Shown here: in pieces, positions 6,873 to 64,000 of the stretch
Layout of the letters: every line of letters begins with the position of its first letter
Position numbering within the stretch: position 1 is the stretch's first letter
Assembly: GCF_000744705.1 (NCBI RefSeq)
Contig: NZ_JQML01000001.1
Location: 5,342,017 to 5,406,016, forward strand
From: Streptacidiphilus albus JL83
Lineage (GTDB): Bacteria; Actinomycetota; Actinomycetes; Streptomycetales; Streptomycetaceae
Direction of reading: 5' to 3'
DNA length: 64,000 nt
Program-made: the position numbers and the translations under genes
Notes under the pieces: model-generated
What the model was told of the DNA's origin: nothing
The model's input: the letters and a program-made list of their open reading frames with translations, nothing else
Database searches by the model: none

Positions 6873-6971
6873 GTGGGTTCCGTAATCAAGAAGCGTCGCA
6901 AGCGTATGGCCAAGAAGAAGCATCGGAAGCTTCTCAAGCGCACACGCGTTCAGCGTCGCAACAAGAAGTAG
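6873..6971 (+). CDS. Mini ribosomal protein bS22 (AURKAIP1/COX24 domain)
   Basis: A 32-residue, extremely basic protein beginning [19 protein letters not shown], starting at GTG. It matches the short actinobacterial protein first seen bound to the mycobacterial 30S subunit (bS22). It is a free-standing gene with its own upstream region and a strong terminator behind it. It is too short for most gene finders. Confidence 0.88.
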
Positions 6972-7006
6972 GACCTGACGTCGTCCCAGGACGGCGCCGA
7001 GGTCTT

Positions 7007-7055
7007 CCGCCGCCCGTACCGACCCCTGTGTCGGTGCGGGCGGCGGTCTTTTCTG
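7007..7055 (+). terminator. Strong terminator after bS22
   Basis: A 17-bp stem with one mismatch (ccgccgcccgtaccgac against gtcggtgcgggcggcgg), a six-base loop, followed directly by a T-rich stretch (tcttttctg), which is unusual here and points to efficient termination of a highly expressed gene. Confidence 0.85.
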
Positions 7056-7133
7056 TGCTCTTTTTGTCCCGCTTCGGACACAGACACCCCCTGATGACAC
7101 GGTCGGGCAACACCGACGCGATACCGTGCACCA

Positions 7134-7151
7134 AGAGGTCCGGGGACCTCT
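7134..7151. promoter_or_regulatory. 18-bp perfect inverted repeat upstream of the epimerase gene
   Basis: The sequence agaggtcc-gg-ggacctct lies 28 bp before the epimerase start codon. It could be an operator or a leader hairpin close to the ribosome-binding site. Confidence 0.35.
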
Positions 7152-7178
7152 GCGCCGGCGGCGGGAAGGGACTGTCCG

Positions 7179-8249
7179 ATGGGAAAGGTCGTACTCGTCA
7201 CTGGGGTTGCCCGGCATCTGGGCAGCCGCTTCGTCCAGACGATCCGCAGGCAGCCGGGTGTCGACCTGGTGGTCGGCGTCGACGTGCAGCCCTCCGTGCA
7301 CGACCTCGTCGGCGGGATCGACGACGGCCGACTGGCCGGCTACACCTTCGTCCACGCAGACATCCGGCGGCCCGTGGTGGCCCGGATACTCGCCGAGCAC
7401 GAGGTCGACACCGTGGTGCACCTCAATGTGAGCACCACCATGCTGGGCTCCACCAGCCGCTCCACGGTCAAGGAGACCAACGTCATCGGCACCATGCAGC
7501 TGCTGGCGGCGGTGCAGAAGTCGCCCACCGTGCAACGGCTGGTGGTGAAGTCGACGACCAGCGTGTACGGGTCCGCGCCCCGCGACCCGGCCGTGTTCAA
7601 CGAGCAGATGCAGCCCAAGATGCTGCCGAGCGGCGGCTTCGCCAAGGACGCGGTGGAGGTCGAGGGCTATGTCCGGGGCTTCGGCCGGCGCCGCCCCGAT
7701 GTCGCGGTCTGCGTGCTGCGCTTCGCCAACATCGTCGGCCCCGATGCCGACACGCCGCTGAACGAGTACTTCTCGCTGCCGGTCCTGCCGACCGTGCTCG
7801 GCTACGACCCCCGGCTGCAGTTCGTCCACGAGGACGACGCGGTCGAGGTGTTGCGGCTCGCCGCGGTCGAGCCCCGGCGCTCGACCACCAACAGCGGTAC
7901 CTTCAATGTCGCGGGGGAGGGCGTGCTGCTGCTCTCCCAGGCCGCGCGGCGGCTCGGACGGCCCACTGTGCCGATGCTGCTGCCGGCGGTCAGCTGGGTG
8001 GCCGGACTGGCCCGGCAGACCAGGGTGCTGGACTTCTCCCCGGAGCAGATGCGGATGCTCACCCACGGCCGGGTGGTCGACACCCGGCACCTGCGCGAGA
8101 ACTTCGGTTACACGCCCGGCTACAGCACCGAGGCGGCCCTGGCCGACCTGGCCCGCTCCACCGGTGCGGGACTGCTGCCGCCGGAGCAGGTGGCCCGCTG
8201 GACGTCCCGGGTGGCAGAACTGCTGCCGACCGACAGAGGAGGCAAGTGA
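7179..8249 (+). CDS. NAD-dependent epimerase/dehydratase-family protein
   Basis: A 356-residue extended short-chain dehydrogenase-fold protein. The N-terminal nucleotide-binding strand is VVLVTGVARHLGSRF, a variant of GxxGxxG. LNVSTTM, KSTTSVYGSAPRDP and RFANIVGPDADTPL follow as in sugar-nucleotide epimerases. The usual YxxxK catalytic pair is not clear: the matching place reads GGFAKDAVEVEGY. It may act on a lipid-linked or nucleotide sugar, or be a binding protein. It overlaps the next gene by one base (TGATG), so it is co-translated with the acyltransferase. Confidence 0.75.
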   Translation: MGKVVLVTGVARHLGSRFVQTIRRQPGVDLVVGVDVQPSVHDLVGGIDDGRLAGYTFVHADIRRPVVARILAEHEVDTVVHLNVSTTMLGSTSRSTVKETNVIGTMQLLAAVQKSPTVQRLVVKSTTSVYGSAPRDPAVFNEQMQPKMLPSGGFAKDAVEVEGYVRGFGRRRPDVAVCVLRFANIVGPDADTPLNEYFSLPVLPTVLGYDPRLQFVHEDDAVEVLRLAAVEPRRSTTNSGTFNVAGEGVLLLSQAARRLGRPTVPMLLPAVSWVAGLARQTRVLDFSPEQMRMLTHGRVVDTRHLRENFGYTPGYSTEAALADLARSTGAGLLPPEQVARWTSRVAELLPTDRGGK

Positions 8250-9376
8250 TGACTTCGGCGAGGGAACACGCGGTGACGGAGGCCAAGGTCATCCCCATCG
8301 GGACGAAGCGGGCGGGCGGCGGCCGGGCCGCGCGCGGCGCAGCGGCGCCGGCGCCGCTGCCGGTGCCCGACCCGGAGCCGCGGTCCGGGCCCGCCGGTGA
8401 GCCCGCCGACGAGCCCGCCGCCGACGAGCCCGCCGCCGACGAGCCCGCCGCCGGCGGCCTCGCCGACAGCGTCGCGGCCGCCGTCGGCGGCGTGCTCTCC
8501 GGGCCGCTGGGCGGCCTCGCGGACCGGTTCCTCGGCAAGGGCTGGGAGGACCGGGCCGCCGGCGGCCTGGACTTCCTGCGCCGCCGGCTGACCGGCGAGT
8601 ACGAGATCGACGAGTTCGGCTTCGACGCCGAGCTCACCGACAAGGTGCTGCTCAACGCCGTCCGTCCGATCGCCGAGAAGTACTTCCGACTGGACGTCCG
8701 GGGCGCGGAGCACCTGCCGGTCGAGGGCGGGGCGCTGGTCGTCGCCAACCACTCCGGGGTGCTGCCCTGGGACGCGCTGATGACCCAGGTCGCCATCCAC
8801 GACCACACGCCGAGCCAACGGCACCTGCGGATGCTCGCGGCCGACCTGGTCTTCGTGCTGCCCGGCGTCAACGAACTGGCCCGCAAGGCCGGGCACACCC
8901 TCGCCTGCAACGAGGACGCCCAGCGGCTGCTGGAGCTGGGCGAGATCGTCGGGGTGTGGCCGGAGGGCTTCAAGGGCATCGGCAAGCCCTTCTCCGAGCG
9001 CTACAAGCTCCAGCGCTTCGGCCGGGGGGGCTTCGTCTCCTCGGCGCTCAAGGCCGGGGTGCCGATCATCCCCTGCGCCATCATGGGCGCGGAGGAGACC
9101 TATCCGATGATCGGCAACGCCCGGACCCTGGCCCGGCTGCTGGGCCTGCCGTACGTCCCGCTGACGCCGACCTTCCCTTGGCTCGGACCGCTGGGCATGG
9201 TGCCGCTGCCGACCAAGTGGACCATCCAGTTCGGCGAGCCGATCCCCACGGACAGCTACCCGCCGGAGGCGGCCGAGGACCCGATGCTGCTGTTCAACCT
9301 GACCGACCAGGTCCGGGAGACGGTCCAGCACAGCCTCTACCGGCTGCTGGTCCAGCGCCGCTCGGTCTTCTTCTGA
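8249..9376 (+). CDS. Lysophospholipid acyltransferase-family protein
   Basis: A 375-residue protein with a long, Ala/Pro-rich N-terminal extension (an EPAADEPAADEP repeat) and a C-terminal PlsC-type domain. The acyltransferase block I is NHSGVLPWDALM (NHx4D) and the phosphate-binding block is PEGFKGIGKPFSERY, followed by PIIPCAIMGAEE. It probably acylates a glycerophospholipid or related lipid at the inner membrane face. The ribosome site AGGAGG is 6 bases before the ATG. It forms a two-gene unit with the epimerase and ends at a shared bidirectional terminator. Confidence 0.82.
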   Translation: MTSAREHAVTEAKVIPIGTKRAGGGRAARGAAAPAPLPVPDPEPRSGPAGEPADEPAADEPAADEPAAGGLADSVAAAVGGVLSGPLGGLADRFLGKGWEDRAAGGLDFLRRRLTGEYEIDEFGFDAELTDKVLLNAVRPIAEKYFRLDVRGAEHLPVEGGALVVANHSGVLPWDALMTQVAIHDHTPSQRHLRMLAADLVFVLPGVNELARKAGHTLACNEDAQRLLELGEIVGVWPEGFKGIGKPFSERYKLQRFGRGGFVSSALKAGVPIIPCAIMGAEETYPMIGNARTLARLLGLPYVPLTPTFPWLGPLGMVPLPTKWTIQFGEPIPTDSYPPEAAEDPMLLFNLTDQVRETVQHSLYRLLVQRRSVFF

Positions 9377-9448: not shown

Positions 9449-10675
9449 TCAGCCGGTGGCTCCGGTGCCGGTCCCGTCGCCGGAGAGGCCGAGGCCGAGG
9501 GCCGGCAGCAGGCCGGGCAGCAGCGGCGGCATGGTGACCCCGCTGCCGGGGGCCGGTGCGGCCGAGGGGCTGCTGTCGTCCGGGCTGCCCGGCGTCGAGG
9601 GGGAGCTCGACGGGGCGGCGCCGCTGCCGAGGACCCCGGTCAGCCCGTTGACCAGGCTGCCGCCGGAACCGCCGGTGCTGCTCGGGGTGGAGACCGGCGC
9701 GCTGCCGCCCATGGTCCCGGTCCCGGAGGTGGTCGCCCCGCTCGGGGCGGCGGCCTGGCCGGAGCGGGAGCCGCTGCCGGCCCCGCCGACCACGGACGAG
9801 GACGAGCCGGTGCCGGGGGCGGACAGCGATCCGCTGCCGCTGGTGGTGGTCCCGCCGAGGTGCAGCGGGGCCAGCTCTTCGCTTATTCCGGAGAGCAGTT
9901 GCTGCACCCGTCCGGCCTCGGGGTCGGCCTGGCTGGGGAGATGCGGGGCCAGCGCGTCCAACTGCCGCTGCTGGGAGCTGGCGAAGCCGGCCAGGCTCTG
10001 CATCGGGGCCAGCGAGTGGCTCTGCTGGTAGATCGCCTGCAGCAGGTTCCGGCCCTGGGTGCCCTCGGCGTTCATGTCGCTGAGCGCCTTGGTGACCTCG
10101 GCGATGACGTGCGGGCTCAGCTCGTGGTCGCTGCCCTCGTGGCGGTCGACCAGCTGCTGCGCCTCGGTCATCCGCTGCGAGGCCTCGCTCAGCAGCAGCC
10201 GGCCGCGCTCGGCGTCCGAACCGGCGAAGTCCAGCCGCCAGTTCTCCAGGCCGCGCTTCACCCCGTACAGCGGATCGCCGGGAATGGCCGAGGAACTGGC
10301 CGCGGCGACGCCGCCGAAGGCACTCACCACCACGCCGGCGGCCAGGCCGCTGACGGCCAGCCGACGGCCCCAGCGGGTGCTGGGCCGGAAGCGGCCGGCG
10401 GCCGCGCCCGCCCGGTGGACGCCGCGGGCCCGCTGCGGGGGCACCGCCGTACTGCCGCCGCCCGCGTAGGCGCGTTCGAACTCGGCCATCAGCTGGGCGC
10501 GCTGGACGGTGCGCACCTCGGGTGCGAGCCCGGGGATGTTCTGGGAACCCAGGGTGTCCAGGGCATCCACTGCGGCCAGAAGTTCCGTGAACTGCTGGGC
10601 GGCAGTGCTGGGACGGTCCTCCACCGCATCGGCGAAGGCTTTCGCCCTGCGGTGTTCAAGCACGTTGGCTGTCAT
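9449..10675 (-). CDS. rsbN: RsbN-like anti-sigma factor for BldN
   Basis: A 408-residue single-pass membrane protein with a cytoplasmic N-terminal anti-sigma domain (AFADAVEDRP to about residue 70), one hydrophobic segment at about 106-126 (LAVSGLAAGVVVSAFGG), a DUF5667-like outer domain (PGDPLYGVKRGLE onward) and a long Gly/Ser/Pro/Thr-rich tail. In Streptomyces RsbN holds the ECF sigma factor BldN inactive until the onset of aerial growth. The gene is directly downstream of bldN on the same strand with a 201-bp gap that carries a BldN-type promoter. The start at 10675 has a GAGGAG ribosome site 8 bases ahead. Confidence 0.88.
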   Translation of the reverse strand: MTANVLEHRRAKAFADAVEDRPSTAAQQFTELLAAVDALDTLGSQNIPGLAPEVRTVQRAQLMAEFERAYAGGGSTAVPPQRARGVHRAGAAAGRFRPSTRWGRRLAVSGLAAGVVVSAFGGVAAASSSAIPGDPLYGVKRGLENWRLDFAGSDAERGRLLLSEASQRMTEAQQLVDRHEGSDHELSPHVIAEVTKALSDMNAEGTQGRNLLQAIYQQSHSLAPMQSLAGFASSQQRQLDALAPHLPSQADPEAGRVQQLLSGISEELAPLHLGGTTTSGSGSLSAPGTGSSSSVVGGAGSGSRSGQAAAPSGATTSGTGTMGGSAPVSTPSSTGGSGGSLVNGLTGVLGSGAAPSSSPSTPGSPDDSSPSAAPAPGSGVTMPPLLPGLLPALGLGLSGDGTGTGATG

Positions 10676-12093: not shown

Positions 12094-13053
12094 TCAGCGG
12101 TGGCGCCGGTTGCGGTAGATCGCCATCGCGGCCACCGTGCCGCCGGCCGCCGCCCCCAGGCCCGCGGCGGCGGGGATGCCCACCCGGGCCGCCTTGCGAC
12201 CGGTCCGGAAGTCCCTTATCCGCCAGCCCTGCTCCCGGGCGTGGCGGCGCAGCCCGGCGTCCGGGTTGATCACGTAGGGGTAGCCGACCAGTGACAGCAG
12301 CGGGATGTCGTTGGAGGAGTCGCTGTAGGCCGCGCAGCGCGCCAGGTCCAGCTGCTCGCGGGCGGCCAGCGCCCGCACCGCCTCGGCCTTGGCCGGTCCG
12401 TGCAGCGGCTCGCCGACCAGCCGTCCGGTGTAGACGCCGCCGACGGCCTCCGCCACCGTGCCCAGCGCGCCGGTCATCCCCAGCCGGGAGGCGATCACCC
12501 TGGCCGCCTCCTGCGGGGCGGCGGTCACCAGCCAGACCCGCTGGCCGGCCTCCAGGTGCATCTTCACCAGCGCCCGGGTGCCCGGCCAGATCTTCTCGGC
12601 CATGTACTCGTCGAAGACCTCCTCGCAGATCCGCTCCAGATCCGCGACCCGGTGGCCCTGGACGATCGACAGGGCGCTCTCCTTGGCGTCCGCCATGTGC
12701 CCGGCGTGCTCGGCGCCGTTCAGCCGGAAGTAGGTCTGCTGCCAGGCGAAGCGCAGCAGTTCGCGGGAGCTGAAGAACTTGCGCTTGTAGAGCCCCCGGC
12801 CCAGGTAGAAGATCGCGGCGCCCTGGACGATGGTGTTGTCGCAGTCGAAGAAGGCGGCGGCCCGGGGGTCGCCCGCCACGCCCGCCACGTCCTCCGCGGT
12901 CGCGGCCGCGGGCTCGGCGGCGGGCTCTGCGGTGGGCTCTGCGGTGGTCTTCGCGGCGCCGAGGGTGGCCTCGGCGGCAGCCTCGCCCGCGAGCACGGCA
13001 GAGGAACGCTTCTCCTTCGGGAGCTTTCGCAGCGTGGCCATGGTGTCGAGCAT
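12094..13053 (-). CDS. HAD-IB family (SerB-like) phosphatase with C-terminal membrane helix
   Basis: A 319-residue protein. After an Ala/Glu/Pro-rich N-terminal stretch comes the HAD motif I FFDCDNTI, then VWLVTAAPQ (motif II), a Lys in GPAKAEAVRAL, and AYSDSSNDIPLLSLVG (motif III/IV), the pattern of HAD subfamily IB. The C-terminus has one hydrophobic segment and a basic end (AIYRNRRHR), suggesting membrane attachment. Relatives are often fused to or located near lysophosphatidic acyltransferases, which fits the acyltransferase 3 kb away. The ATG at 12041+1000, i.e. position 13041, is an alternative start. Confidence 0.85.
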   Translation of the reverse strand: MLDTMATLRKLPKEKRSSAVLAGEAAAEATLGAAKTTAEPTAEPAAEPAAATAEDVAGVAGDPRAAAFFDCDNTIVQGAAIFYLGRGLYKRKFFSSRELLRFAWQQTYFRLNGAEHAGHMADAKESALSIVQGHRVADLERICEEVFDEYMAEKIWPGTRALVKMHLEAGQRVWLVTAAPQEAARVIASRLGMTGALGTVAEAVGGVYTGRLVGEPLHGPAKAEAVRALAAREQLDLARCAAYSDSSNDIPLLSLVGYPYVINPDAGLRRHAREQGWRIRDFRTGRKAARVGIPAAAGLGAAAGGTVAAMAIYRNRRHR

Positions 13054-13122
13054 AGCCAGCGGAGCCGTTTCACTCCGTATCGCGGATGTGGAAGGGGCGT
13101 TAACGGGGCGCAGAATGTGCGG

Positions 13123-13404
13123 GTGACTTCTCTGCTGCGCCGAGGCGCCTCCCGCAAGGGCCCGTCCGACCATGTGATCACCCTGATCGGCAAGCCCGAC
13201 TGCCATCTCTGCGAGGACGCCCGCGCGGTGGTGGCCGGACTGGCCGAGGAGCTGGGGTTCTCCTGGGAGGAACTGGACATCCTCCAGGACGAGGAGCTCT
13301 ACCGGAAGTACTGGGAGCAGATCCCGGTCACGCTGGTCGACGGCAGGCAGCACGACTTCTGGCGGGTGGACCCGCAGCGGCTGCGGAAGGCACTGGGCGC
13401 CTGA
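13123..13404 (+). CDS. Glutaredoxin-like thiol-disulfide protein
   Basis: A 93-residue thioredoxin-fold protein of the short glutaredoxin/DUF836 type. The redox motif is GKPDCHLCEDA, followed by IPVTLVDGRQ with the usual cis-proline. The GTG start at 13123 is a choice; GTG at 13117 is also in frame. It is divergent from the HAD-IB gene and lies just before rex, as in other streptomycetes, fitting a redox theme. Confidence 0.87.
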   Translation: MTSLLRRGASRKGPSDHVITLIGKPDCHLCEDARAVVAGLAEELGFSWEELDILQDEELYRKYWEQIPVTLVDGRQHDFWRVDPQRLRKALGA

Positions 13405-13602
13405 CCGGCCCCGGCCGGGCATGGCGGGTTCACCGCCGGTTCACCGTCTTATGAGATGGGACGTTCGTACGTTTACCATCAAGAGGTTTTGTGCCGGGGG
13501 GCCGACCTTGGAGGAGTGACAGCGTGCCCACCGGCTCACACCGGCACTCCGGTGCACCGTGCGTGATGCGCGTCACTCCTCGGGGACAAAACGGACACTA
13601 TC

Positions 13603-13622
13603 TTTGTGCACACGTTCACAAA
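13603..13622. promoter_or_regulatory. Rex operator (ROP) upstream of rex-hem operon
   Basis: The 20-bp imperfect palindrome TTTGTGCACACGTTCACAAA lies 45 bp before the rex start codon. It matches the Rex site TTGTGNNNNNNNNCACAA. Rex is known to repress its own operon when NADH is low relative to NAD+, so this site predicts redox control of haem synthesis. Confidence 0.88.
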
Positions 13623-13667
13623 CGCATAGCCTGGCGGTCGCAGCCCAGCTTCACCCACAGGAGCACC

Positions 13668-14534
13668 GTGGCAACTGGACGTTCCACCCCATCCAACCCG
13701 CCCGCGGGCCGGGCGCCTTCGGGCCGCTCGCGCGGTCGGGGCATTCCCGACGCCACGGTCGCGCGGCTCCCGCTCTACCTCCGGGCGCTGACCGCGCTCT
13801 CCGAGCGTTCCGTTCCCACGGTCTCATCCGAGGAACTGGCCACTGCCGCCGGGGTCAACTCGGCGAAGCTCCGCAAGGACTTCTCCTACCTGGGCTCCTA
13901 CGGCACCCGGGGCGTCGGCTACGACGTCGAGTACCTCGTCTACCAGATCTCCCGCGAGCTGGGCCTGACCCAGGACTGGCCGGTCGTCATCGTCGGCATC
14001 GGAAACCTGGGCCACGCCCTCGCCAACTACGGCGGCTTCGCCTCGCGCGGGTTCCGGGTCGCCGCCCTGCTGGACGCCGACCCGGCGCTGGCCGGGCGCA
14101 CCGCCGCCGGCCTGCCGGTCCGGCACATGGACCAGCTGGAGGAGATCATCCGGGCGGAGCACGTCTCCATCGGAGTGATCACCACGCCCCCGGGCGCGGC
14201 CCAGCAGGTCTGCGACCGACTGGTCGCGGCCGGGGTCACCAGCATCCTCAACTTCGCACCGACGGTGCTCTCGGTGCCGGACGGGGTGGACGTCCGCAAG
14301 GTCGACCTCTCCATCGAACTGCAGATCCTGGCCTTCCACGAGCAGCGGAAGTCCGGCGAGGTCCCGTTCGCGGACGAGCCCCCGGCCGCGGTCTCGCGCC
14401 CCGGCAGCGGGGCGAAGGCGGTGGCCGCCGCGGCGGCGCGGGCCGTGACCCGGGCCCGCGGCAAGGCCGTGACCGGTCCCGGCCGCGGTGACGACGGCGA
14501 CGACGGCGACCTCTCGGCGGTGATCCCGGCGTGA
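13668..14534 (+). CDS. rex: Redox-sensing transcriptional repressor Rex
   Basis: A 288-residue homodimeric repressor that releases DNA when NADH binds. The N-terminal winged helix contains VPTVSSEELATAAGVNSAKL and LRKDFSYLGSYGTRGVGY. The Rossmann domain has VVIVGIGNLGHALANY (GxGxxG at about 110-115), and the C-terminus has the domain-swapped helix (LSIELQILAFHEQRK). A disordered Ala/Arg/Asp-rich tail follows. The GTG at 13668 (VATGR) was chosen because Rex of S. coelicolor begins MATGR and GGAG lies 4 bases ahead. It is the first gene of the hem operon. Confidence 0.95.
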   Translation: MATGRSTPSNPPAGRAPSGRSRGRGIPDATVARLPLYLRALTALSERSVPTVSSEELATAAGVNSAKLRKDFSYLGSYGTRGVGYDVEYLVYQISRELGLTQDWPVVIVGIGNLGHALANYGGFASRGFRVAALLDADPALAGRTAAGLPVRHMDQLEEIIRAEHVSIGVITTPPGAAQQVCDRLVAAGVTSILNFAPTVLSVPDGVDVRKVDLSIELQILAFHEQRKSGEVPFADEPPAAVSRPGSGAKAVAAAAARAVTRARGKAVTGPGRGDDGDDGDLSAVIPA

Positions 14535-14556
14535 ATCCGGAAAGAGAGGCAGAAGC

Positions 14557-15912
14557 ATGAGTCTGCTGGTACTCGGCCTCAGTCACCGCACCGCGCCGGT
14601 CGGGCTGCTGGAGCGGGCGGCACTCACCGGTGACGCACCGGTGCAGTTGCTCCACGCCGCCGCCGCAGCCGGTCCCGTGGGTGAGGCGGCCCTGGTCAAC
14701 ACCTGCAACCGGATCGAGCTCTACACCGACGTGGACAAGTTCCACGCCGGTGTCGACGAGCTGTCCGCGCTGTTCGCCGAGCACACCGGCATCGGCCTGG
14801 AGGAGCTCACCGCGCACCTGTACGTCCACTACGAGGACCGCGCCGTGCACCACCTGTTCTCGGTGGCGTGCGGCCTCGACTCGATGGTGGTCGGCGAGGG
14901 GCAGATCCTCGGCCAGCTCCGGGACGCGCTGTCGCTCGCGCAGGAGCAGAGCACGGCCGCCCGCAGCCTCAACGAGCTGTTCCAGCAGGCGCTGCGGGTC
15001 GGCAAGCGGGCGCACACCGAGACCGGGATCGACCGGGCCGGCCAGTCGCTGGTCACCTTCGGCCTGGAGCGGATCGCCGACGCGGCCGGCCCGATCGCCG
15101 GCAAGCGGGCGCTGGTCGTCGGCGCCGGCTCGATGAGCTCGCTGGCGGCGGCGACCCTGGCCCGTGCCGGGGTGGCCGAACTGGTCATCGCCAATCGGAC
15201 GGCGGCGCGGGCCGAACGGCTGGCGGCGACGCTGGCCGAGTACGGCGCGCGGGCCATCCCCTTCGCCGGTGTCGCCGAGGCGCTGGCCGGGGCCGACGTG
15301 GTGATCTCGTGTACCGGGGCGGCCGGGATCGTCCTCACCGCCCGGGACATCGCCGCCGCCGCAGCCGCGCGCGCGGGGGAGATCCCGCTCGCCCTGCTCG
15401 ACCTGGCGATGCCCCGGGACGTCGACCCCGGCGTCCAGGCCCTGGACGGGGTCCACCTGGTGGACCTGGAGTACCTGGCCGAGGCCGCCGCCCGCGCCGA
15501 CGGCGCGGCCGGGGCTTTGGACGTCGACGCGGTTCGCCGTATCGTCGCCCAGGAAGTGGAGTCCTTCGGCGCCGCACAGCGCGCCGCGGCGATCACTCCG
15601 ACCGTGGTCGCCCTGCGCGCCATGGCCTCCGGTGTGGTCAGCTCCGAACTGGAACGCCTCGACGGCCGTCTGCCCGGCCTCGAAGCCCGCGTCCGCGCCG
15701 AACTGGCGCAGACCGTCAACCGGGTCGTCGACAAGCTGCTGCACTCGCCCACGGTGCGGGTCAAGCAGCTGGCCGGGGAGCCGGGGGGCGCCTCCTACGC
15801 GGAGGCCCTGCGGGAGCTGTTCGATCTCGACCCCGCCGCGGTCCAGGCCGTCGCGGGGGCACCGGCGCGCGTTCCGGCGCAGGTGCCGACCCTGGGGGGT
15901 GGCCTGGGATGA
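14557..15912 (+). CDS. hemA: Glutamyl-tRNA reductase
   Basis: First enzyme of C5 tetrapyrrole synthesis: it reduces glutamyl-tRNA to glutamate-1-semialdehyde. It has 451 residues, with the catalytic Cys at position 50 in LVNTCNRIELY, the GEGQILGQLR motif, the Rossmann segment ALVVGAGSMSSLAA, and the C-terminal dimerisation helices. It lies 22 bp after rex, and its stop codon overlaps a possible early start of hemC (15909). Confidence 0.96.
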   Translation: MSLLVLGLSHRTAPVGLLERAALTGDAPVQLLHAAAAAGPVGEAALVNTCNRIELYTDVDKFHAGVDELSALFAEHTGIGLEELTAHLYVHYEDRAVHHLFSVACGLDSMVVGEGQILGQLRDALSLAQEQSTAARSLNELFQQALRVGKRAHTETGIDRAGQSLVTFGLERIADAAGPIAGKRALVVGAGSMSSLAAATLARAGVAELVIANRTAARAERLAATLAEYGARAIPFAGVAEALAGADVVISCTGAAGIVLTARDIAAAAAARAGEIPLALLDLAMPRDVDPGVQALDGVHLVDLEYLAEAAARADGAAGALDVDAVRRIVAQEVESFGAAQRAAAITPTVVALRAMASGVVSSELERLDGRLPGLEARVRAELAQTVNRVVDKLLHSPTVRVKQLAGEPGGASYAEALRELFDLDPAAVQAVAGAPARVPAQVPTLGGGLG

Positions 15913-55404: not shown

Positions 55405-56196
55405 GTGAGTGATTCCATCCCTGCCTGGGCGCAGGACGACTTCGGCGAGCACGCGGCTGAGGTGCGCAATGCGGTGCTGTCGGCGCTGCGGACCACCGGT
55501 AAGACGATGCTGGAAGTGAAGGCGGTCGCCAACTCGCGGCGGAACTTCGCACCGGCTGGGGCTCGGATGACGAATCAGTTCGAGCGGCTCACGCAGCATC
55601 TAGAGGCGCTGGATCTCCCAGAAACCGAACTCGTCAAGACCGGCACGTGGTACGAGCTGGCGCTGGTAATGAATCGGCTGTTTTACCCGGTCTGGATCGA
55701 AGGGGTGGACCGGGAGCCGGGCGACCAGTGGCCGAAGAAGTCGTTGTCTGGCGTGGTGAGGGAGCTGTTCGCCGTTACAGACTCTGGCCGGCCGCGCTGG
55801 GTCGAGGACCCGCTCCTAGGACTGGACGTTCCAGAGCTCGTTGTGCGTCGTTCCCTGGCTGAGTTGGCTGGCCGCGATCCTCGACCCCGTCTCGTGCTCG
55901 TCATGTACGAGACCGACCACGGCGGCCTCCATCGAGCCTGGTGGGGGCAGGCGGAACTGGTGGATGAGAGCGGTGCCCTGCGATGGCTCGCCGAGCCTGA
56001 GCTGCTGTCTTCGGATGGCACGGCTACGCTGGCCTCCGTTCCCCAGCAGCGAGACGAAGATCGTTTCGATGCCGGAGCGCCGCCCGAGGTACCGATGGCC
56101 GAGCGAAGCGCTCACGAGCGTGGTCTGGACATCACCCCTCAGACCGAGAAGCCCGAGCCAACGGAAGACGACGCGACCGCAAGTGAAGAGGACTGA
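55405..56196 (+). CDS. Unknown protein paired with XRE-ImmA/IrrE
   Basis: A 263-residue soluble protein: IPAWAQDDFGEHAAEVRNAV, FERLTQHLEALDLPETELVK, WYELALVMNRLFYPVWIEGV, RLVLVMYETDHGGLHRAWWG. The C-terminus is acidic and disordered (PEPTEDDATASEED). I recognise no family. It overlaps the start of the XRE-metalloprotease gene by 14 bp, so they act together, perhaps as the substrate or partner of the protease. Confidence 0.65.
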   Translation: MSDSIPAWAQDDFGEHAAEVRNAVLSALRTTGKTMLEVKAVANSRRNFAPAGARMTNQFERLTQHLEALDLPETELVKTGTWYELALVMNRLFYPVWIEGVDREPGDQWPKKSLSGVVRELFAVTDSGRPRWVEDPLLGLDVPELVVRRSLAELAGRDPRPRLVLVMYETDHGGLHRAWWGQAELVDESGALRWLAEPELLSSDGTATLASVPQQRDEDRFDAGAPPEVPMAERSAHERGLDITPQTEKPEPTEDDATASEED

Positions 56197-57355
56197 GCAG
56201 CCCACCATCCCCAACCTTGGCCTCGTCAACGACGTATCGCCGAGGGCAGTCTGGGATGCCTTCCATCCGCCCAGGCTCACTCAGGCACGCCATCTGGCGG
56301 GCATGACCAAGAAGGAAGTCGCTACTCGTATCGGTGTCTCTCCGGCAGCTGTGGGTCAGTATGAGACGGGAAGCAGCAAGCCCCGTCCGGAGCTGTTGCC
56401 CCGCCTTGCCGACGTGTTGGAAGTTCCGGTTGAGTTCTTCTTGGCTGGGCGTCCGATGGGCAAGCTCGACACCTCAATGGCGCACTTTCGGGCCCTTCGT
56501 TCGACGAGCAGTGCACAGCGGGACCGTGCTCTTGGCTTCGCCGCGCAGGTCTGGGAACTGACCCACGCTCTGGAAAAGCGCATTCAGCTACCGTGGGTCG
56601 ACCTCCCAGGATTTGCTGGTGGCGAGGTCCATCCTGGAGTGGACCTGCCAGCGGAACCGGTTGCGGCTGCACGTGAACTGCGCCGACGCTGGAGCCTTGG
56701 GAAGGGGCCCGTCCGTCACCTTGTGCGTCAGATGGAGGCTCACGGAATCGTTTTGGTCGCGCCGTCGGACGCGGATCCGAGCGCTGCCAAGGTAGATGCC
56801 TTCGCCAGCGCCGGACTGCCCCGACCTCTCGTGATCCTGACAGCTAATCGTGCGGACGATGTGTACCGTCATCGCTTCAGCGCCGCGCACGAGCTCGGTC
56901 ACTTGGTGCTGCACTCGGCCTCAACCGGAGATGCTGCCCAGGAGCATGAAGCAAACGCGTTTGCTGCGGCCTTCCTCACGCCCGCGGAGTACATCAAACC
57001 GCTCCTTCCGAGTCGGATGAATCTCGCGCACCTTGCCGACTTGTCTCGCGCATGGGGTGTCTCGGTCAAATCCCTCATCTACCGTTGCCGCGAGCTCGGC
57101 TTGACGTCGGAGGCCAGCGCGAGCCGGGCTTACCAACGGCTCGCGGCTCTTTCCAGGCAGCCAGGCTTCGCTCCTGAGCCTGTCGCTGGTTTTCCGGGGG
57201 AGCAGCCTGTGATGCTCAGCCAAGCGTTCGAGCTTGCTCGTCGAGAATCGGGCCTTACCGTCCAGGAGCTAGCCAGGGAACTGGCGTGGAAGCCTGAGAG
57301 GGTGCGTGTTCTTCTCGGAGTGGCTGACACACGTCCCGTTCTGCGTCTCGTGTGA
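56183..57355 (+). CDS. XRE-family regulator with ImmA/IrrE-type metallopeptidase domain
   Basis: A 390-residue protein. The XRE HTH (about 31-85) is RLTQARHLAGMTKKEVATRI, GVSPAAVGQYETGSSKPRPE. The protease motif is HRFSAAHELGHLVLH with His236, Glu237 and His240, followed by EHEANAFAAAFLTPAEYIKP. A second short helical region near the C-terminus (LARRESGLTVQELARELAWK) looks like another HTH. Proteins of this design (ImmA, IrrE, PezT-linked) cleave a repressor after stress or control phage and mobile elements. GTG start at 56183; other starts upstream belong to the overlapping gene. Confidence 0.86.
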   Translation: MKRTEQPTIPNLGLVNDVSPRAVWDAFHPPRLTQARHLAGMTKKEVATRIGVSPAAVGQYETGSSKPRPELLPRLADVLEVPVEFFLAGRPMGKLDTSMAHFRALRSTSSAQRDRALGFAAQVWELTHALEKRIQLPWVDLPGFAGGEVHPGVDLPAEPVAAARELRRRWSLGKGPVRHLVRQMEAHGIVLVAPSDADPSAAKVDAFASAGLPRPLVILTANRADDVYRHRFSAAHELGHLVLHSASTGDAAQEHEANAFAAAFLTPAEYIKPLLPSRMNLAHLADLSRAWGVSVKSLIYRCRELGLTSEASASRAYQRLAALSRQPGFAPEPVAGFPGEQPVMLSQAFELARRESGLTVQELARELAWKPERVRVLLGVADTRPVLRLV

Positions 57356-58478: not shown

Positions 58479-58802
58479 ATGGCTGACTACCTAGCAGTTC
58501 TCACGACGACTGACTCCGCTGACTCGGCTGCCGCACTTGCTCGTTCGGCGGTGACCGCCCGGCTGGCTGCGTGCGCCCAGGTCGACGGGCCGATCACTTC
58601 GACGTACTGGTGGCAGGGCGAGGTGGAGACCGCGCAGGAGTGGCGGGTGCTCTACAAGACCACAGCTGAGCGGTACCCGGCGTTGGAGGCCCACATCAAG
58701 GCCGAGCACTCCTACGACACCCCGGAGGTGATCGTCGGCGAGATCCCGACCGGCAGCCGCGAGTACCTCGCCTGGATAACCGAGGAGACCCAGCAGTCCT
58801 GA
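58479..58802 (+). CDS. cutA: Divalent-cation tolerance protein CutA
   Basis: A 107-residue trimeric PII-like fold protein. Typical motifs: VTARLAACAQVDGPITSTYWWQ, VLYKTTAERYPALEAHIKAEH, SYDTPEVIVGEIPTGSREYL. CutA is a small cytoplasmic protein linked to metal tolerance. The C-terminus ITEETQQS is normal. It marks a return to conserved chromosomal sequence after the accessory island. Confidence 0.93.
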   Translation: MADYLAVLTTTDSADSAAALARSAVTARLAACAQVDGPITSTYWWQGEVETAQEWRVLYKTTAERYPALEAHIKAEHSYDTPEVIVGEIPTGSREYLAWITEETQQS

Positions 58803-58860: not shown

Positions 58861-60117
58861 TCAACGGAGCACCGTCTGTAGCTCGTCGGCGAGGTTGCGG
58901 GCCTCGCTGCTGTCGTTGGCGGCCAGGAGTTGGTGCAGAGCGGTGAGGCGGTCGCGGCTGAGCTGGACTTCGCCGCGTTGGGCCTCGGTAGCTGCCCGGC
59001 GGGCGACTTCCGCGCCCTGGTCGATACGGCCGGCGCGGACGTACGCGGTGGCCACGTCCGCGAGGGCGACGGCGTTGGCCTTGTCCTGGCCGGTCAGGTG
59101 GCCGATGGTGCGCTCGGCGGCGTCCTGCACGTCGACGTGTCCGATACGGCCGTAGGCGTTGGCCTCCATGGAGGCGAGCCGGGCCGGGCCGAGGAACCGC
59201 ACCCACGGCTGGGCCTGGTCCGGATCGGCGTAGTCGTAGGCGGTGACCGCTCGATCGAGCGAGCGTACAGTGCTGGACCGGTCTCCGACCGCCGCGGCCT
59301 CCTCCGCTTCGCGGGCGGCGGCCCATGCGCGAGCTGCCGCGTACGCGGGGCCCTTTACGTGGGTCTGGGCGGTGGACAGCAGGCTGCGGGCCTTGGCTGA
59401 GTCGCCCCGGTGGGCGGCGGCATACGAGGCGTAGATCAGGGCGAGGGCAGTCAGTGGCGGGTGGTTGGCTTCCGCTCCGGCGTCGGCCGCGACGCGGTAG
59501 TAGCGGGAGGCTCCGGCCTCGTCGCGCATGTCCCAGGTCATCCATCCGGCCAGTGCGGCGGTCTCCCCGGCCGCGACCAGCAGGGCCTGGCGATGCTTCC
59601 CCGCCTGGGGCAGGACGCTGATGATCGTGTCGAGATGTGCGTAGACCCTTGGTCGCATCAAGCGTGCGGGGATGCCGTGTTCGGCGAGGTAGAGCTGTTC
59701 GGTGGTGCGGGTCAGGGATCGGGCGGTGCGAGTGTCCACGGGAGCACCGGCGATGGCGGCGGCGAGGCGACCCCAGGGCTCGGTCACGGCGCCGGCCGCT
59801 ATGGCGGTCGCGCCCAGGAAGGTCCGTCGGTACACGGTCTCGAACTCCTCATCCACGGGGGTAGCTGCCAGGCGGCGCTTCTGCCGGGCAGCGACGACCG
59901 CCCGCCGCAGATGCTCCTGCGGTACCCCGAACGACCGAGCGGTGTGGCTCTGCCAGAACGGGGACAGCAGTCGTTCCTCGCGCTCCCAGCGGGAAACCGT
60001 GTGACGATCCACGGGTAACCCGGACTTCTCGGACAGGTCGGCGGCCTGTTCCGACTGGGAGCGTCCGGACTCCTCGCGCAGAGCACGCAGCAGCGGTCCG
60101 ATCGTCTCAATGCCCAT
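58861..60117 (-). CDS. XRE-family regulator with TPR-like C-terminal region
   Basis: A 418-residue regulator. N-terminal XRE HTH: IGPLLRALREESGRSQSEQA and TVSRWEREERLLSPFW. The remaining 330 residues are helical TPR-like repeats (AALAGWMTWDMRDEAGASRY, ALALIYASYAAAHRGDSAKA, LADVATAYVRAGRIDQGAEV). This type of protein is common in streptomycetes next to RiPP gene clusters. ATG 60117 was taken; an ATG at 60132 is an alternative. It is divergent from the small genes that precede the lanthipeptide precursor and is a candidate regulator of them. Confidence 0.84.
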   Translation of the reverse strand: MGIETIGPLLRALREESGRSQSEQAADLSEKSGLPVDRHTVSRWEREERLLSPFWQSHTARSFGVPQEHLRRAVVAARQKRRLAATPVDEEFETVYRRTFLGATAIAAGAVTEPWGRLAAAIAGAPVDTRTARSLTRTTEQLYLAEHGIPARLMRPRVYAHLDTIISVLPQAGKHRQALLVAAGETAALAGWMTWDMRDEAGASRYYRVAADAGAEANHPPLTALALIYASYAAAHRGDSAKARSLLSTAQTHVKGPAYAAARAWAAAREAEEAAAVGDRSSTVRSLDRAVTAYDYADPDQAQPWVRFLGPARLASMEANAYGRIGHVDVQDAAERTIGHLTGQDKANAVALADVATAYVRAGRIDQGAEVARRAATEAQRGEVQLSRDRLTALHQLLAANDSSEARNLADELQTVLR

Positions 60118-60290
60118 GATGCGCGCCCCCATGGCCCGATGCGGAAGTGGATCAGATTTCTGGACCACAGAAGTGGCCCACAGTCAGGAACGGCCCCCTA
60201 CGGGGTTCCTCCTGAGTTTGTACACCCGCAGTTGACTGAGCATCAGCCCGTTCGCGGTTCATCGCTCGCAATCTGCCAGGAGTCGATCGC

Positions 60291-60599
60291 ATGTCCTACC
60301 CCGTACTTCCCCCAGGAGCTGGGTCCGCACCCGCCGATACAGCGGCAGTCACGGACTCGCGCCCGGCCGGAACCCAGGGACAGGACGTGACGAAGGCACC
60401 GACCGGGCCGCAGATCGGCGACCTCGTCAAGGACAACGACGGCCACGAGTTGGTCGTCACGGACGTCCACAGCGGCCAGCTGATCGTACGACCGCTCCAC
60501 AGCAACCGCGAGCTGCCGGCCGACTCTCCGGAAGCCCTGACGGTTGTGGCCAGACGGGGTCAGTGGGGCGGTCGACCAGGCGAGGAGTGGGCCCGGTGA
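60291..60599 (+). CDS. Small protein of lanthipeptide locus, unknown function
   Basis: A 102-residue protein. The N-terminal 40 residues are Pro/Ala/Thr-rich and disordered; the rest (IGDLVKDNDGHELVVTDVHS, GQLIVRPLHSNRELP) looks like a small beta barrel. aggag lies 7 bases before the ATG. It overlaps the next small gene (GTGA) and precedes the precursor gene by about 320 bp. Confidence 0.65.
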   Translation: MSYPVLPPGAGSAPADTAAVTDSRPAGTQGQDVTKAPTGPQIGDLVKDNDGHELVVTDVHSGQLIVRPLHSNRELPADSPEALTVVARRGQWGGRPGEEWAR

Positions 60600-60778
60600 G
60601 CGGGCGTCACGCCGGACCCGACCCGGTGACGATCGCGTTAGGCACCGTCTGGGCCGGTGCCAGCGCCGTGCTTCTGACCCTCCTCGCGATCCTGGCCCAC
60701 GAGCCGTGCTCATGCTCTCCCGGGGCATCCGCATCCGCTCCGGTGTCGGCACCGGACCTGTCACCGCCGGGCACCTGA
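60596..60778 (+). CDS. Small single-pass membrane protein
   Basis: A 60-residue protein with one hydrophobic segment (VTIALGTVWAGASAVLLTLL) and a short Cys/Ser/Pro-rich end (PCSCSPGASASAP). The GTG start overlaps the stop of the gene before. It could be a genuine small gene of the cluster; support is position and coupling only. Confidence 0.45.
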   Translation: MSGRHAGPDPVTIALGTVWAGASAVLLTLLAILAHEPCSCSPGASASAPVSAPDLSPPGT

Positions 60779-60915
60779 GACCCGGCCCTGCCCGCGCACC
60801 CCTGAGCCGTGCGGGCGGGGTCGGCACCAACCTCCGTCCGGTGATCCGGGCGGACGGCGGCGGTCTTGCTGGGGCAGGGCCGCCGCACCATCCCCAACCA
60901 GTAGGAGGATCCGAA

Positions 60916-61089
60916 ATGGCACCAACTGCACTGAGCATCCTGGACCGCGCCCCCGTGGTGGACAGCGACCCGCTCGACCTGGACGTGTCCGTGATCACCG
61001 AGGTCGGCGCGGACCGGATCCCGGTGGCCTGCGGCACCTCTGACGGGTGCGACCCGTCCTGTGCCAGCTCCTGCACCAGCGCCGTCTGA
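60916..61089 (+). CDS. FxLD-type lanthipeptide precursor
   Basis: A 57-residue precursor peptide. The leader has SDPLDLDVSVITEV (about 17-30), matching the FxLD recognition motif, with Pro in place of the usual Phe. The likely core is the last 20 or so residues, with four cysteines (39, 45, 49, 53) and several Ser/Thr for dehydration: VACGTSDGCDPSC then ASSCTSAV. Ser/Thr on both sides of the Cys residues allow up to four thioether rings. A strong ribosome site (ggagg) is 7 bases ahead of the ATG. It lies 81 bp before the LanB-type dehydratase. Confidence 0.87.
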   Translation: MAPTALSILDRAPVVDSDPLDLDVSVITEVGADRIPVACGTSDGCDPSCASSCTSAV

Positions 61090-61170
61090 CCTGCTGTCCA
61101 GCCCGCTCGACGTGGGGCCGGGATCTCCCTCGGCCCCACCCCACCCCTCTCAGGTACGGCGGAGGAACCG

Positions 61171-64000
61171 ATGAGCGTCCCCGGCAAGCCGCTCTACCAG
61201 CACACCGGTACCGCACTGCTGCGGGCAGCCACGGTGCCGCTGACCCGTGGCACCGACTGGTGGCCGGACCCGGCCGACACTGCGGACTGCCGCCGCTGGC
61301 TTGGGCAGGTCTGGTCCCGGCCGGAAGTTGCCGACGCGATCCGTGATGCCAGCCCCGGACTGGCCGGGCGGGTCGACGCGATCCGCGCCGACCGCCCGGT
61401 CACGGACAAGCAGATCCTGCGCGCGACCGAGTCCACCGCCCGCTACCTGCTGCGGTCCACCGGCCGCCCAACGCCGTTCGGCCTGTTCGCAGGAGTGGCC
61501 CAAGCGAGGCTGGGGCCGACCGCCACAGTACGGTTCGGCACCGGCCATCGGCCGGTCGCCCGGGTCGATACCGAGTGGCTGGCCAGCGTTGTCGATCGTC
61601 TGGAAGCCGTCCCCGAACTGCTCGAGCGCTTGGACTTGGTGTTCAACAACCTCGCCGCTCAGCGTGGTGGCCGACTCCAGGTACCCCATGGCGGACCGAA
61701 CCGCGTCAGCGTCCGCTACACCAGCGCGATCCGAGTGCTGCGGGACGCCGCCGCCAGTGCGGCCCCGTTCGCGGATCTGGCGGACAAGCTCACCGAGACC
61801 GTGCCCGGCGCCGACCGGTCCCGCGTCACCGCGGTGCTCGCCGAGCTTGTCCGGCAGGGCTTCCTGATCACCTGCCTGCGGGCCCCGCTCACGGTCACCG
61901 ACCCCCTGTGCCACCTGCTCGACCGGCTTCGCGAGGCCGGAGCGGACACCGTGCCGGCCGTGGTGCCGGTCCTGCGGGAACTTGAGGCCGTCCGCGACGA
62001 CCTCGCCCAGCACAACAGCCAGGGCGGTCCAGTTCAGGGGCGCGCGGAGATCGTCGGACGCCTGCGAGACCTGTCCTCGGCCGGACGCACCGCGCTGGCA
62101 GTGGATCTGCTGCTGGACTGCGATGTCCAGGTGCCCCGCGAGGTGGCCCGTGAGCTGGAGCGGGCCGCCGACGTCCTGCTGAGACTGACCCGCCAGCCGA
62201 CCGGCGAGGCGGTGTGGCGCGAGTACCGTGCCGCGTTCTGGGAGCACTACGGCATCGGCACCCTGGTCCCCCTGACCGAGTTCCTGGACCCGGCCGCCGG
62301 ACTCGGCTTCCCCGCGCAGTACCCCGGCAGCACAATGACCCCGCCGGTGGCCGCACCCACGGCACGCGATCAACGGCTGCTGGCCCTGGCCTGGCAGGCG
62401 ATGGCCGACGGCAGCGGCGAGATCCTGCTGACCGACCGGATCATCGACGAGTTGACCGACGGCGCACGTCTCGACGAGCACCGCATCCCGCCGCACGTGG
62501 AGATCGCGGCCCGGATCCAAGCCGGAAGCACGACCGCGTTGGAGCGTGGGGACTTCACCGTGACCGTCACCCCGGCTCGCGCCGCTGGAACCCTCACCTC
62601 ACGGTTCACCCCCGTCGCCACCGGCACCGGCCTGGCCGACATCTACCGGGGCCTGCCTGCCTCGACAGCCGGGGCCCTTGTCGCCCAGTTGTCGTTCCCG
62701 CCGCTCTACCCGCACACCGAGAACATCTGTCGCATCCCCGCCTATCTGCCCCACGTCATCGCCCTGGGCGAGCACCGCCACCCGAACGATGCGGCCACTG
62801 TCATCCCGCTGGATGACCTCGCGCTCACTGCTACCCGCGACCGCCTGCACCTGGTCAGCATTTCGCGCCGCCGGGTGGTCGAGCCGCAGGTGTTCCATGC
62901 CATGGCGTTGGAGAAGCAACCGCCCCCCTTGGCCAGGTTCCTGGCTCACCTCCCGCGCGCCTTCGCCGCCATCTGGACTGGCTTCGACTGGGGCCCGCAC
63001 GCCGTCCACCTGCCCCGCCTGCCTCGGGTCCGCTACCGCCGCACCATCATCTCCCCGGCCCGCTGGACCCTTGCCGTCGGTGCCCTGACCGGTACCGGCA
63101 TCATGGACCTGGAGCAGTGGCGCAAGCGCTGGGGCTGCCCGCGTACAGTCGAACTTCGAGACCAGGAGCGGACGTTACGGCTGACCCTGACCGAGCCGGT
63201 CCACGTGGCGATACTGCACACGCACCTCAAGCGTTACGGGACCGCCGTCTTGACCGAGGCCATCGGCGCCGACGAGCTGGGCTGGTTGGAGGGGCACGTC
63301 CACGAAGTCGCCGTTCCTCTGGTCGCCGCCCGTCCCCCTGCCCCCTCGCCGCTGGCCGGATCGCTGCCGACGACCACGAACAGCAGCCGCGGCCCCCTGC
63401 CCGGCTCACCGGCGAGCCGGTGGCTGAACGCGAAGCTTCGCACCCACCCCGAGCGCTACGACGAGATCCTGACCGAGCACCTGCCCCGGCTCCTGGCCAG
63501 CCTGCTTGGCGACCCTCAATTCTGGTTCGTCCGCTACCGCAGTCCGCACGAGAGTGACCATCTGCGGATGCGCTTCCGCACCCAGAGCCCGGACCAGTTC
63601 GGGCAGTTCGCCGATGTGATCGGCCGGTGGGCGGAAGGACTGAGGCACGACGGCCTCGCCTCCGGGCTGGCCTTCGACGTCTACGCGCCCGAGACCGGCC
63701 GCTACGGGTACGGTGCGGCCATGGAAGCGGCCGAGGCGGTGTTCTGCGCCGACTCGCAGGCGGTCACTGCCTCGCTCCGGCTCCTGCCGGCCCCTGCCGT
63801 CGACCCGAGGTCGCTGGTCGTCGCGGGCATGGTCGACATCGCCCGCGGCTTCCTCGGATCAGACGACGCCATGACGTGGCTGGCATCCCGGCCCGCGCCC
63901 ACTGCCCCCGCTGCCGATCGGGTTATGGCCAACCGCTCGGTCCAGTTGGCTCTGCACGGCTCGGGCCCGTGGCCAGGCGAGATCGAGCGGGTCCGGCAGT
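61171..64000 (+). CDS. lanB: Class I lanthipeptide dehydratase (LanB), partial at the window edge
   Basis: The frame is open from ATG 61171 to the right edge (943 codons so far). The N-terminal glutamylation domain has SVPGKPLYQHTGTALLRAAT, RSTGRPTPFGLFAGVA and SARWTLAVGAL-like C-terminal parts. The elimination domain, SpaB_C/thiopeptide type, begins with WLNAKLRTHPERYDEILTEH and FWFVRYRSPHESDHLRMRFR. It uses glutamyl-tRNA to dehydrate Ser/Thr in the precursor. ggagg lies 5 bases before the ATG. The cyclase (LanC) and further genes are expected past the window. Confidence 0.9.
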   Translation, partial: MSVPGKPLYQHTGTALLRAATVPLTRGTDWWPDPADTADCRRWLGQVWSRPEVADAIRDASPGLAGRVDAIRADRPVTDKQILRATESTARYLLRSTGRPTPFGLFAGVAQARLGPTATVRFGTGHRPVARVDTEWLASVVDRLEAVPELLERLDLVFNNLAAQRGGRLQVPHGGPNRVSVRYTSAIRVLRDAAASAAPFADLADKLTETVPGADRSRVTAVLAELVRQGFLITCLRAPLTVTDPLCHLLDRLREAGADTVPAVVPVLRELEAVRDDLAQHNSQGGPVQGRAEIVGRLRDLSSAGRTALAVDLLLDCDVQVPREVARELERAADVLLRLTRQPTGEAVWREYRAAFWEHYGIGTLVPLTEFLDPAAGLGFPAQYPGSTMTPPVAAPTARDQRLLALAWQAMADGSGEILLTDRIIDELTDGARLDEHRIPPHVEIAARIQAGSTTALERGDFTVTVTPARAAGTLTSRFTPVATGTGLADIYRGLPASTAGALVAQLSFPPLYPHTENICRIPAYLPHVIALGEHRHPNDAATVIPLDDLALTATRDRLHLVSISRRRVVEPQVFHAMALEKQPPPLARFLAHLPRAFAAIWTGFDWGPHAVHLPRLPRVRYRRTIISPARWTLAVGALTGTGIMDLEQWRKRWGCPRTVELRDQERTLRLTLTEPVHVAILHTHLKRYGTAVLTEAIGADELGWLEGHVHEVAVPLVAARPPAPSPLAGSLPTTTNSSRGPLPGSPASRWLNAKLRTHPERYDEILTEHLPRLLASLLGDPQFWFVRYRSPHESDHLRMRFRTQSPDQFGQFADVIGRWAEGLRHDGLASGLAFDVYAPETGRYGYGAAMEAAEAVFCADSQAVTASLRLLPAPAVDPRSLVVAGMVDIARGFLGSDDAMTWLASRPAPTAPAADRVMANRSVQLALHGSGPWPGEIERVRQ

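Follow-up and report, generated by a model that had tools for sequence, protein, structure and literature searches.

The right end of a 64,000-nucleotide stretch of the Streptacidiphilus albus JL83 genome (assembly GCF_000744705.1; positions 5,342,017–5,406,016 on one 9.9-Mb contig, NZ_JQML01000001.1), hereafter the window, very probably carries a class I FxLD lanthipeptide cluster with a PIMT-like tailoring methyltransferase, that is, a "lanthimiditide" cluster, as judged from sequence. A prediction made earlier from the letters of the window had proposed an FxLD-type lanthipeptide cluster cut by the window edge, and this was borne out: the precursor passes the NCBI FxLD-lanthipeptide model, and the rest of the cluster lies in the continuation of the contig beyond the edge (L005, whose positions plus 57,983 give window positions). 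On the forward strand, two small genes are followed by the precursor gene and by genes for a LanB dehydratase, a LanC-like cyclase and an FxLD-system methyltransferase; a gene for an XRE-TPR regulator diverges from them.

The precursor, MAPTALSILDRAPVVDSDPLDLDVSVITEVGADRIPVACGTSDGCDPSCASSCTSAV, is a 57-aa peptide encoded by an open reading frame (ORF) at 60916–61089 (+) with the ribosome-binding site GGAGG. It scored 33.3–34.3 bits against TIGR04363 (LD_lanti_pre), above the cut-off of 30, and is thus more than a chance match. The leader recognition motif at residues 20–23 (60973–60984, +) reads Leu-Asp-Leu-Asp (LDLD), a variant of FxLD. The original prediction had Pro in place of the usual Phe, which is incorrect: Leu stands at that position (D-P-L-D-L-D-V, compared with D-P-F-D-L-D-V in relatives), and the Pro is the residue preceding the motif, found in many relatives as well. 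Among 78 distinct precursors (from 79 matches, which lie at 76 loci in 51 of the 150 relatives searched), the first motif position is Phe in 70 (60 FxLD and 10 FxxLD), Leu in three, Trp in three and Tyr in two, the Leu-type precursors being those of the window, of its paralogous cluster (L006, described below) and of locus L094. The window motif is of the aromatic/hydrophobic-x-L-D form, in which a literal Phe is common but not obligatory, and the accessible text of PMC12710340 describes LxLD variation as tolerated. Four Cys residues are present in 34 of 75 precursors and three in 38 (a count that omits three precursors reading into long ORFs), so the four-Cys core is not unusual. Neither the precursor nor the core of one relative had a sequence match in the PDB.

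The core region ACGTSDGCDPSCASSCTSAV (residues 38–57; 61027–61086, +) contains the TxDGC motif as T41-S-D43-G-C45, with Asp43 as the predicted isoaspartate (isoAsp)/aspartimide site. The Asp of the general motif [T/A/S]xD(G/N/T/D)C is present in all 78 distinct precursors, one of which reads A-S-D-G-G-C, and a Cys ahead of the TxDxC motif, as in the window core, is common to many other FxLD peptides (31 of the 78). A precursor search over 394 genomes of the family gave matches in 32; the closest of these, together with the precursors of the window, L006, L102 (from another family) and the plasmid locus L140, make up a subfamily of 11. Eleven residues are invariant across it (D18, C39, D43, G44, C45, C49, A50, S51, C53, S55, and V57), positions 41 and 48 are always Ser or Thr, and mean pairwise identity is 0.73 in the core compared with 0.47 in the leader (two near-identical rows excluded from the means). 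The reverse pattern, with the leader more constrained than the core, is expected of diversifying bacteriocins, and the conservation seen here hints at a single conserved target. Constraint on synonymous sites of the precursor was considered and rejected: the paralogue pair has a synonymous divergence (dS) of 0.30 compared with about 0.6, but the 55 subfamily pairs show no consistent excess.

LanB starts at 61171 (+), runs through the window edge at 64000 and ends at 64194, giving 1007 aa at full length. It carries both the glutamylation and the elimination domains (N-terminal PF04738, 641.7 bits; C-terminal PF14028, 152.2 bits), scores 188.7 bits against TIGR03891, and matches NisB as well as MibB (5ehk). 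The LanC-like protein (64191–65339, +; L005 6208–7356; 382 aa), whose GTG start lies inside the end of LanB, matches PF05147 at 128 bits and keeps, in alignment to NisC, the WCYG and CHG stretches that presumably provide the zinc ligands. The methyltransferase gene follows 78 bases past the LanC-like gene (65418–66638, +; L005 7435–8655), and its 406-aa product scores 435.1 bits against TIGR04364 ("methyltransferase, FxLD system"; cut-off 320). The PCMT domain occupies residues 14–224, leaving a long C-terminal extension. Of the genes that had been expected to the right of the edge, the LanC-like and methyltransferase genes are thus in place, and a transport gene was not found in the recovered flank. 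Homologues near the precursor at the 76 loci number 71 for LanB, 71 for the LanC-like protein and 73 for the methyltransferase. Within the genus, 9 of 14 Streptacidiphilus genomes have a LanB homologue, none exceeding 42% identity outside the strain's own genome; a scan of genome contigs with LanB returned one relative, at 34%.

The FxLD family has been described in PMC7268733, PMC10787088, and PMC13001092, as far as the accessible parts of these papers go. The available sections of PMC10787088 give a C-terminal extension as a feature of RiPP (ribosomally synthesized and post-translationally modified peptide) PAMTs and TxDGC as a core motif, and the window cluster has both. A characterized relative is the OlvA/OlvBCSA system of Streptomyces olivaceus NRRL B-3009 (Acedo et al. 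2019), which, in the descriptions available to us, combines a class I LanB and LanC with the PIMT-type methyltransferase LanSA, as does the window cluster. In OlvA, according to the accessible text of PMC13001092 and PMC7268733, a conserved Asp in the ring region of the core is converted to isoAsp via an aspartimide, and the same is predicted for the window core. The former source gives the order as dehydration, cyclization and methylation by OlvSA, with 70–80% isoAsp, and proposes the name lanthimiditides. The actinobacterial class I families I 1–4 (Walker et al. 2020, PMC7268733, in the part seen) likewise combine a conserved core Asp with a co-encoded PF01135 O-methyltransferase, as here. 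Two plasmids, of Streptomyces sp. NBC_01175 and NBC_01174 (NZ_CP108603.1 and NZ_CP108606.1), share the gene order of the window cluster, with the genes annotated as FxLD family lantipeptide, dehydratase, LanC, and fxlM. Their LanB is about 59% identical to that of the window and their core is ACGTGDGCAASCASSCASAV; they differ in having Phe in the leader motif, in their upstream small genes (a DUF6415 protein and others) and in being plasmid-borne. As to the suggestion that the product is undescribed, the collections searched yielded no identical core. The novelty was nonetheless overstated, as the family is large and described and close relatives are annotated. The window peptide is a further member of a large, recognized family with standard machinery, and the exact peptide was not found elsewhere.

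Based on these likenesses, we propose a plausible route for maturation of the peptide, in which the genes, their order, their families and the conserved motifs are observed, and each chemical step, the ring pattern and the regulation are modeled on relatives. The LDLD leader of the precursor would be bound by LanB, which would dehydrate Ser and Thr residues of the core. The LanC-like enzyme would then close thioether rings on the four Cys residues, one of them probably between Thr41 and Cys45 around S-D-G. Subsequently, the methyltransferase would methylate Asp43 within this ring to give an aspartimide that would open mainly to isoAsp. Since the TxDGC core motif and the C-terminal methyltransferase extension both agree with described relatives, we infer that LanB dehydrates the core, that the LanC-like enzyme closes the rings and, by analogy with OlvA, that the methyltransferase converts Asp43 to isoAsp. 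The XRE-TPR protein would regulate the cluster. A hairpin with an 11-bp stem occupies the gap between precursor and LanB (61112–61139, +), and it is a probable attenuator or processing site. In lanthipeptide operons, hairpins after the precursor keep the precursor transcript above the enzyme transcript, and the window hairpin probably has the same effect. The evidence for it is at the family level: 52 of 87 precursors have a hairpin whose score exceeds the 99th percentile for random windows, compared with about 9.5% of 557 other stops. The score at the window locus (15.5) is at the 99th percentile, so this hairpin is not among the 52.

The genome encodes four FxLD precursors, four LanB proteins and six methyltransferases over the TIGR04364 cut-off, and the window cluster is one of four FxLD clusters. 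One of the others, L006 (G000:C1, 4.008–4.014 Mb), is its paralogue: all six genes are common to both, including the two small upstream genes, and its leader motif is also LDLD. It differs in its core, GCDTSDGCGSTCASACNSAV, and in lacking an XRE-TPR gene in the 5.5 kb upstream. Identity between the two clusters is 52% for small gene 1, 64% for small gene 2, 66% for the precursor, 71% for LanB, 67% for LanC and 81% for the methyltransferase. Every gene has a nonsynonymous divergence (dN) lower than its dS (dN/dS 0.20/0.30 for the precursor, 0.20/0.59 for LanB, 0.25/0.59 for LanC, 0.11/0.58 for the methyltransferase, 0.39/0.70 for small gene 1, and 0.25/0.72 for small gene 2, in which codon position 3 holds most of the differences), indicating purifying selection since the two clusters split. 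With four clusters, including a paralogous pair whose cores differ, the strain offers a convenient test bed.

Several observations weigh against the assignment. The precursor ranks among the weakest matches to TIGR04363. In the core, Asp-Pro (CDPSC) takes the place of the CGST or CGSS of most relatives, and the hairpin at this locus is by itself unexceptional (fold energy z −1.29). The comparison with OlvA draws on descriptions of its core and enzymes. The recovered right flank showed neither an exporter nor a leader protease, so that the cluster genes leave leader removal and export unaccounted for; since an ABC ATPase pattern occurs at only 2 of 85 FxLD loci, the exporter gap is family-wide. 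The unusual leader Leu and the low TIGR04363 score, together with integrase- and transposase-type genes 1–5 kb 3′ of the methyltransferase, could also mark a decaying or silent copy, paralogous to L006, from which a product is no longer made. This we regard as very unlikely, with all cluster genes intact, dN below dS throughout and the LxLD form reported as tolerated. Alternatively, the methyltransferase, whose PIMT domain resembles that of repair PIMTs, could be a housekeeping-type repair enzyme that adjoins the cluster by chance. This we regard as extremely unlikely, given the margin of the enzyme over the TIGR04364 cut-off, which none of 14 named control genomes reached, the methyltransferase neighbor conserved at nearly all FxLD loci, and its place as the best-conserved gene between the paralogous clusters.

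The XRE-TPR regulator suggested by the original prediction was confirmed as a divergent gene at 58861–60168 (−). Its longest ORF gives 435 aa; from the ORF, the start is probably at 60117, giving 418 aa. The protein scored 167 bits against NF053720 (NsdA_fam_reg; cut-off 75) and had no sequence match in the PDB. The window's own cluster prompted a test of the association more widely. A hidden Markov model (HMM) search found an XRE-TPR gene within 5.5 kb upstream at 55 of 85 FxLD loci (a set that takes in L140 and L142–L149 and includes near-duplicates), compared with no full-length match and one 110-aa partial match in 400 kb of sequence taken arbitrarily from the same genome set, a control biased in favor of the association because the HMM was built on FxLD-locus sequences. 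Despite this bias, the association is supported by an independent NCBI model, which across 14 genomes placed an XRE-TPR gene within 6.5 kb (measured to the near edge) of at least 10 of 29 clusters, counted among the matches listed plus the window's own gene, compared with 0.44 expected. We found no description of a link between XRE-TPR proteins and FxLD clusters in the accessible parts of the literature consulted.

The AlphaFold model of the regulator (mean pLDDT 89.3) places its TPR part, as a predicted fold, close to Rap, AimR and NprR (Z 16.8–19.9, root-mean-square deviation 4.2–5.0, about 260–285 residues). The top-ranking match is a eukaryotic TPR protein (Z 20.3), PlcR is at rank 39 in the Foldseek search, and repeat proteins give high Z scores generally. 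RRNPP is the family name for peptide receptors of the Rap/PlcR/NprR/AimR type, which have a TPR superhelix at the C terminus and, in members that bind DNA, an HTH at the N terminus. Co-evolution of the regulator as a receptor was examined and rejected: regulator similarity does not track LanB similarity (Mantel rho 0.07, p 0.086, 47 loci), and identity among regulators is about 25% at LanB identities of about 60%, which weakens the case for a fixed receptor–ligand pair. Our reading is that this regulator class has been recruited repeatedly to FxLD clusters.

These findings bear on function, where the peptide might serve as a signal and not as an antibiotic: the adjacent XRE-TPR protein, in control of the cluster, would read either the mature product or a fragment of the leader. 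Such a role would compete with the lanthimiditide interpretation on function only, its chemistry being compatible. The recurrence of XRE-TPR genes upstream of FxLD loci, the predicted receptor-like fold and a subfamily core more conserved than its leader would all fit. However, regulators do not follow LanB, XRE-TPR genes are plentiful (8–33 per genome), unrelated TPR proteins score as high in the structural comparison, and the sister cluster L006 has no such gene upstream; we therefore consider this role unlikely. Still somewhat less likely is a broader proposal, that FxLD lanthipeptides are self-signals, with the recurrently recruited XRE-TPR protein and its RRNPP-like fold sensing a leader fragment or the Asp, isoAsp or aspartimide form of the core and switching the cluster or development. 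If true, it would assign a role to the members of a very large RiPP group and tie RRNPP-style sensing to lanthipeptides in actinobacteria. By itself, the window cluster extends a large described group by a single peptide; the more interesting question is what FxLD peptides do, and the recurring XRE-TPR regulators provide a handle on what aspartimidylated lanthipeptides do, which the accessible text of a 2026 review (PMC13001092) calls the bigger challenge.

Upstream of the precursor, both predicted small ORFs are present and overlap, as claimed. The start of small gene 1, given earlier as ATG 60291, is instead probably GTG 60387, because homology to the paralogue begins there (60387–60599, +; 70 aa from GTG). 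Small gene 2 (60596–60778, +; 60 aa) has a hydrophobic middle segment and contains EPCSCS; it overlaps the stop of small gene 1 (GTGA), which makes translational coupling probable. Small gene 1 has no Pfam or NCBIfam match over the curated cut-offs. Given the homology and dN below dS between the paralogous clusters, both genes are probably real and travel with this cluster pair. They were rejected as a general part of FxLD clusters: across 197 genomes of the order, strong matches fell only in the strain's own genome, at the two paralogous clusters, and the remaining FxLD loci that were examined yielded no homologues. Weak matches in 10 other genomes (33–41% identity, E 3.6e-6 or worse) were not checked for adjacency to FxLD clusters.

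Further observations concern other loci and neighboring genes. The third FxLD cluster of the genome (L007) has two FxLD-type methyltransferases (6951–8267 and 12624–15137) flanking LanB and LanC on either side. At L170 8909–10147 (G000:C1, 7.0119–7.0131 Mb), a methyltransferase scoring 462.7 bits, over the FxLD-system cut-off, adjoins ABC-transporter-like genes, with no FxLD precursor seen; this is possibly another aspartimide RiPP. Locus L066 has three tandem FxLD precursors in about 600 bases, one with the altered ring motif ASDGGC. L109 (around 9849–9944) contains a precursor-like frame that includes an in-frame TAG; neither LanB nor LanC nor the methyltransferase was found close to it, and it is probably a remnant. 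The mobile-element genes 3′ of the methyltransferase comprise a tyrosine-recombinase-type gene and two transposase genes (DDE, IS4-type) at L005 9567–13302 (window-equivalent 67550–71285), and mobile DNA may have brought the cluster in. Within the window, 55841–57355 (+) appears to encode a regulator with HTH and ImmA/IrrE-type metallopeptidase parts, judged by eye from the translation, and 58479–58802 (+), just outside the XRE-TPR gene, encodes a CutA-like divalent-cation tolerance protein (85.6 bits, under the curated cut-off of 120).

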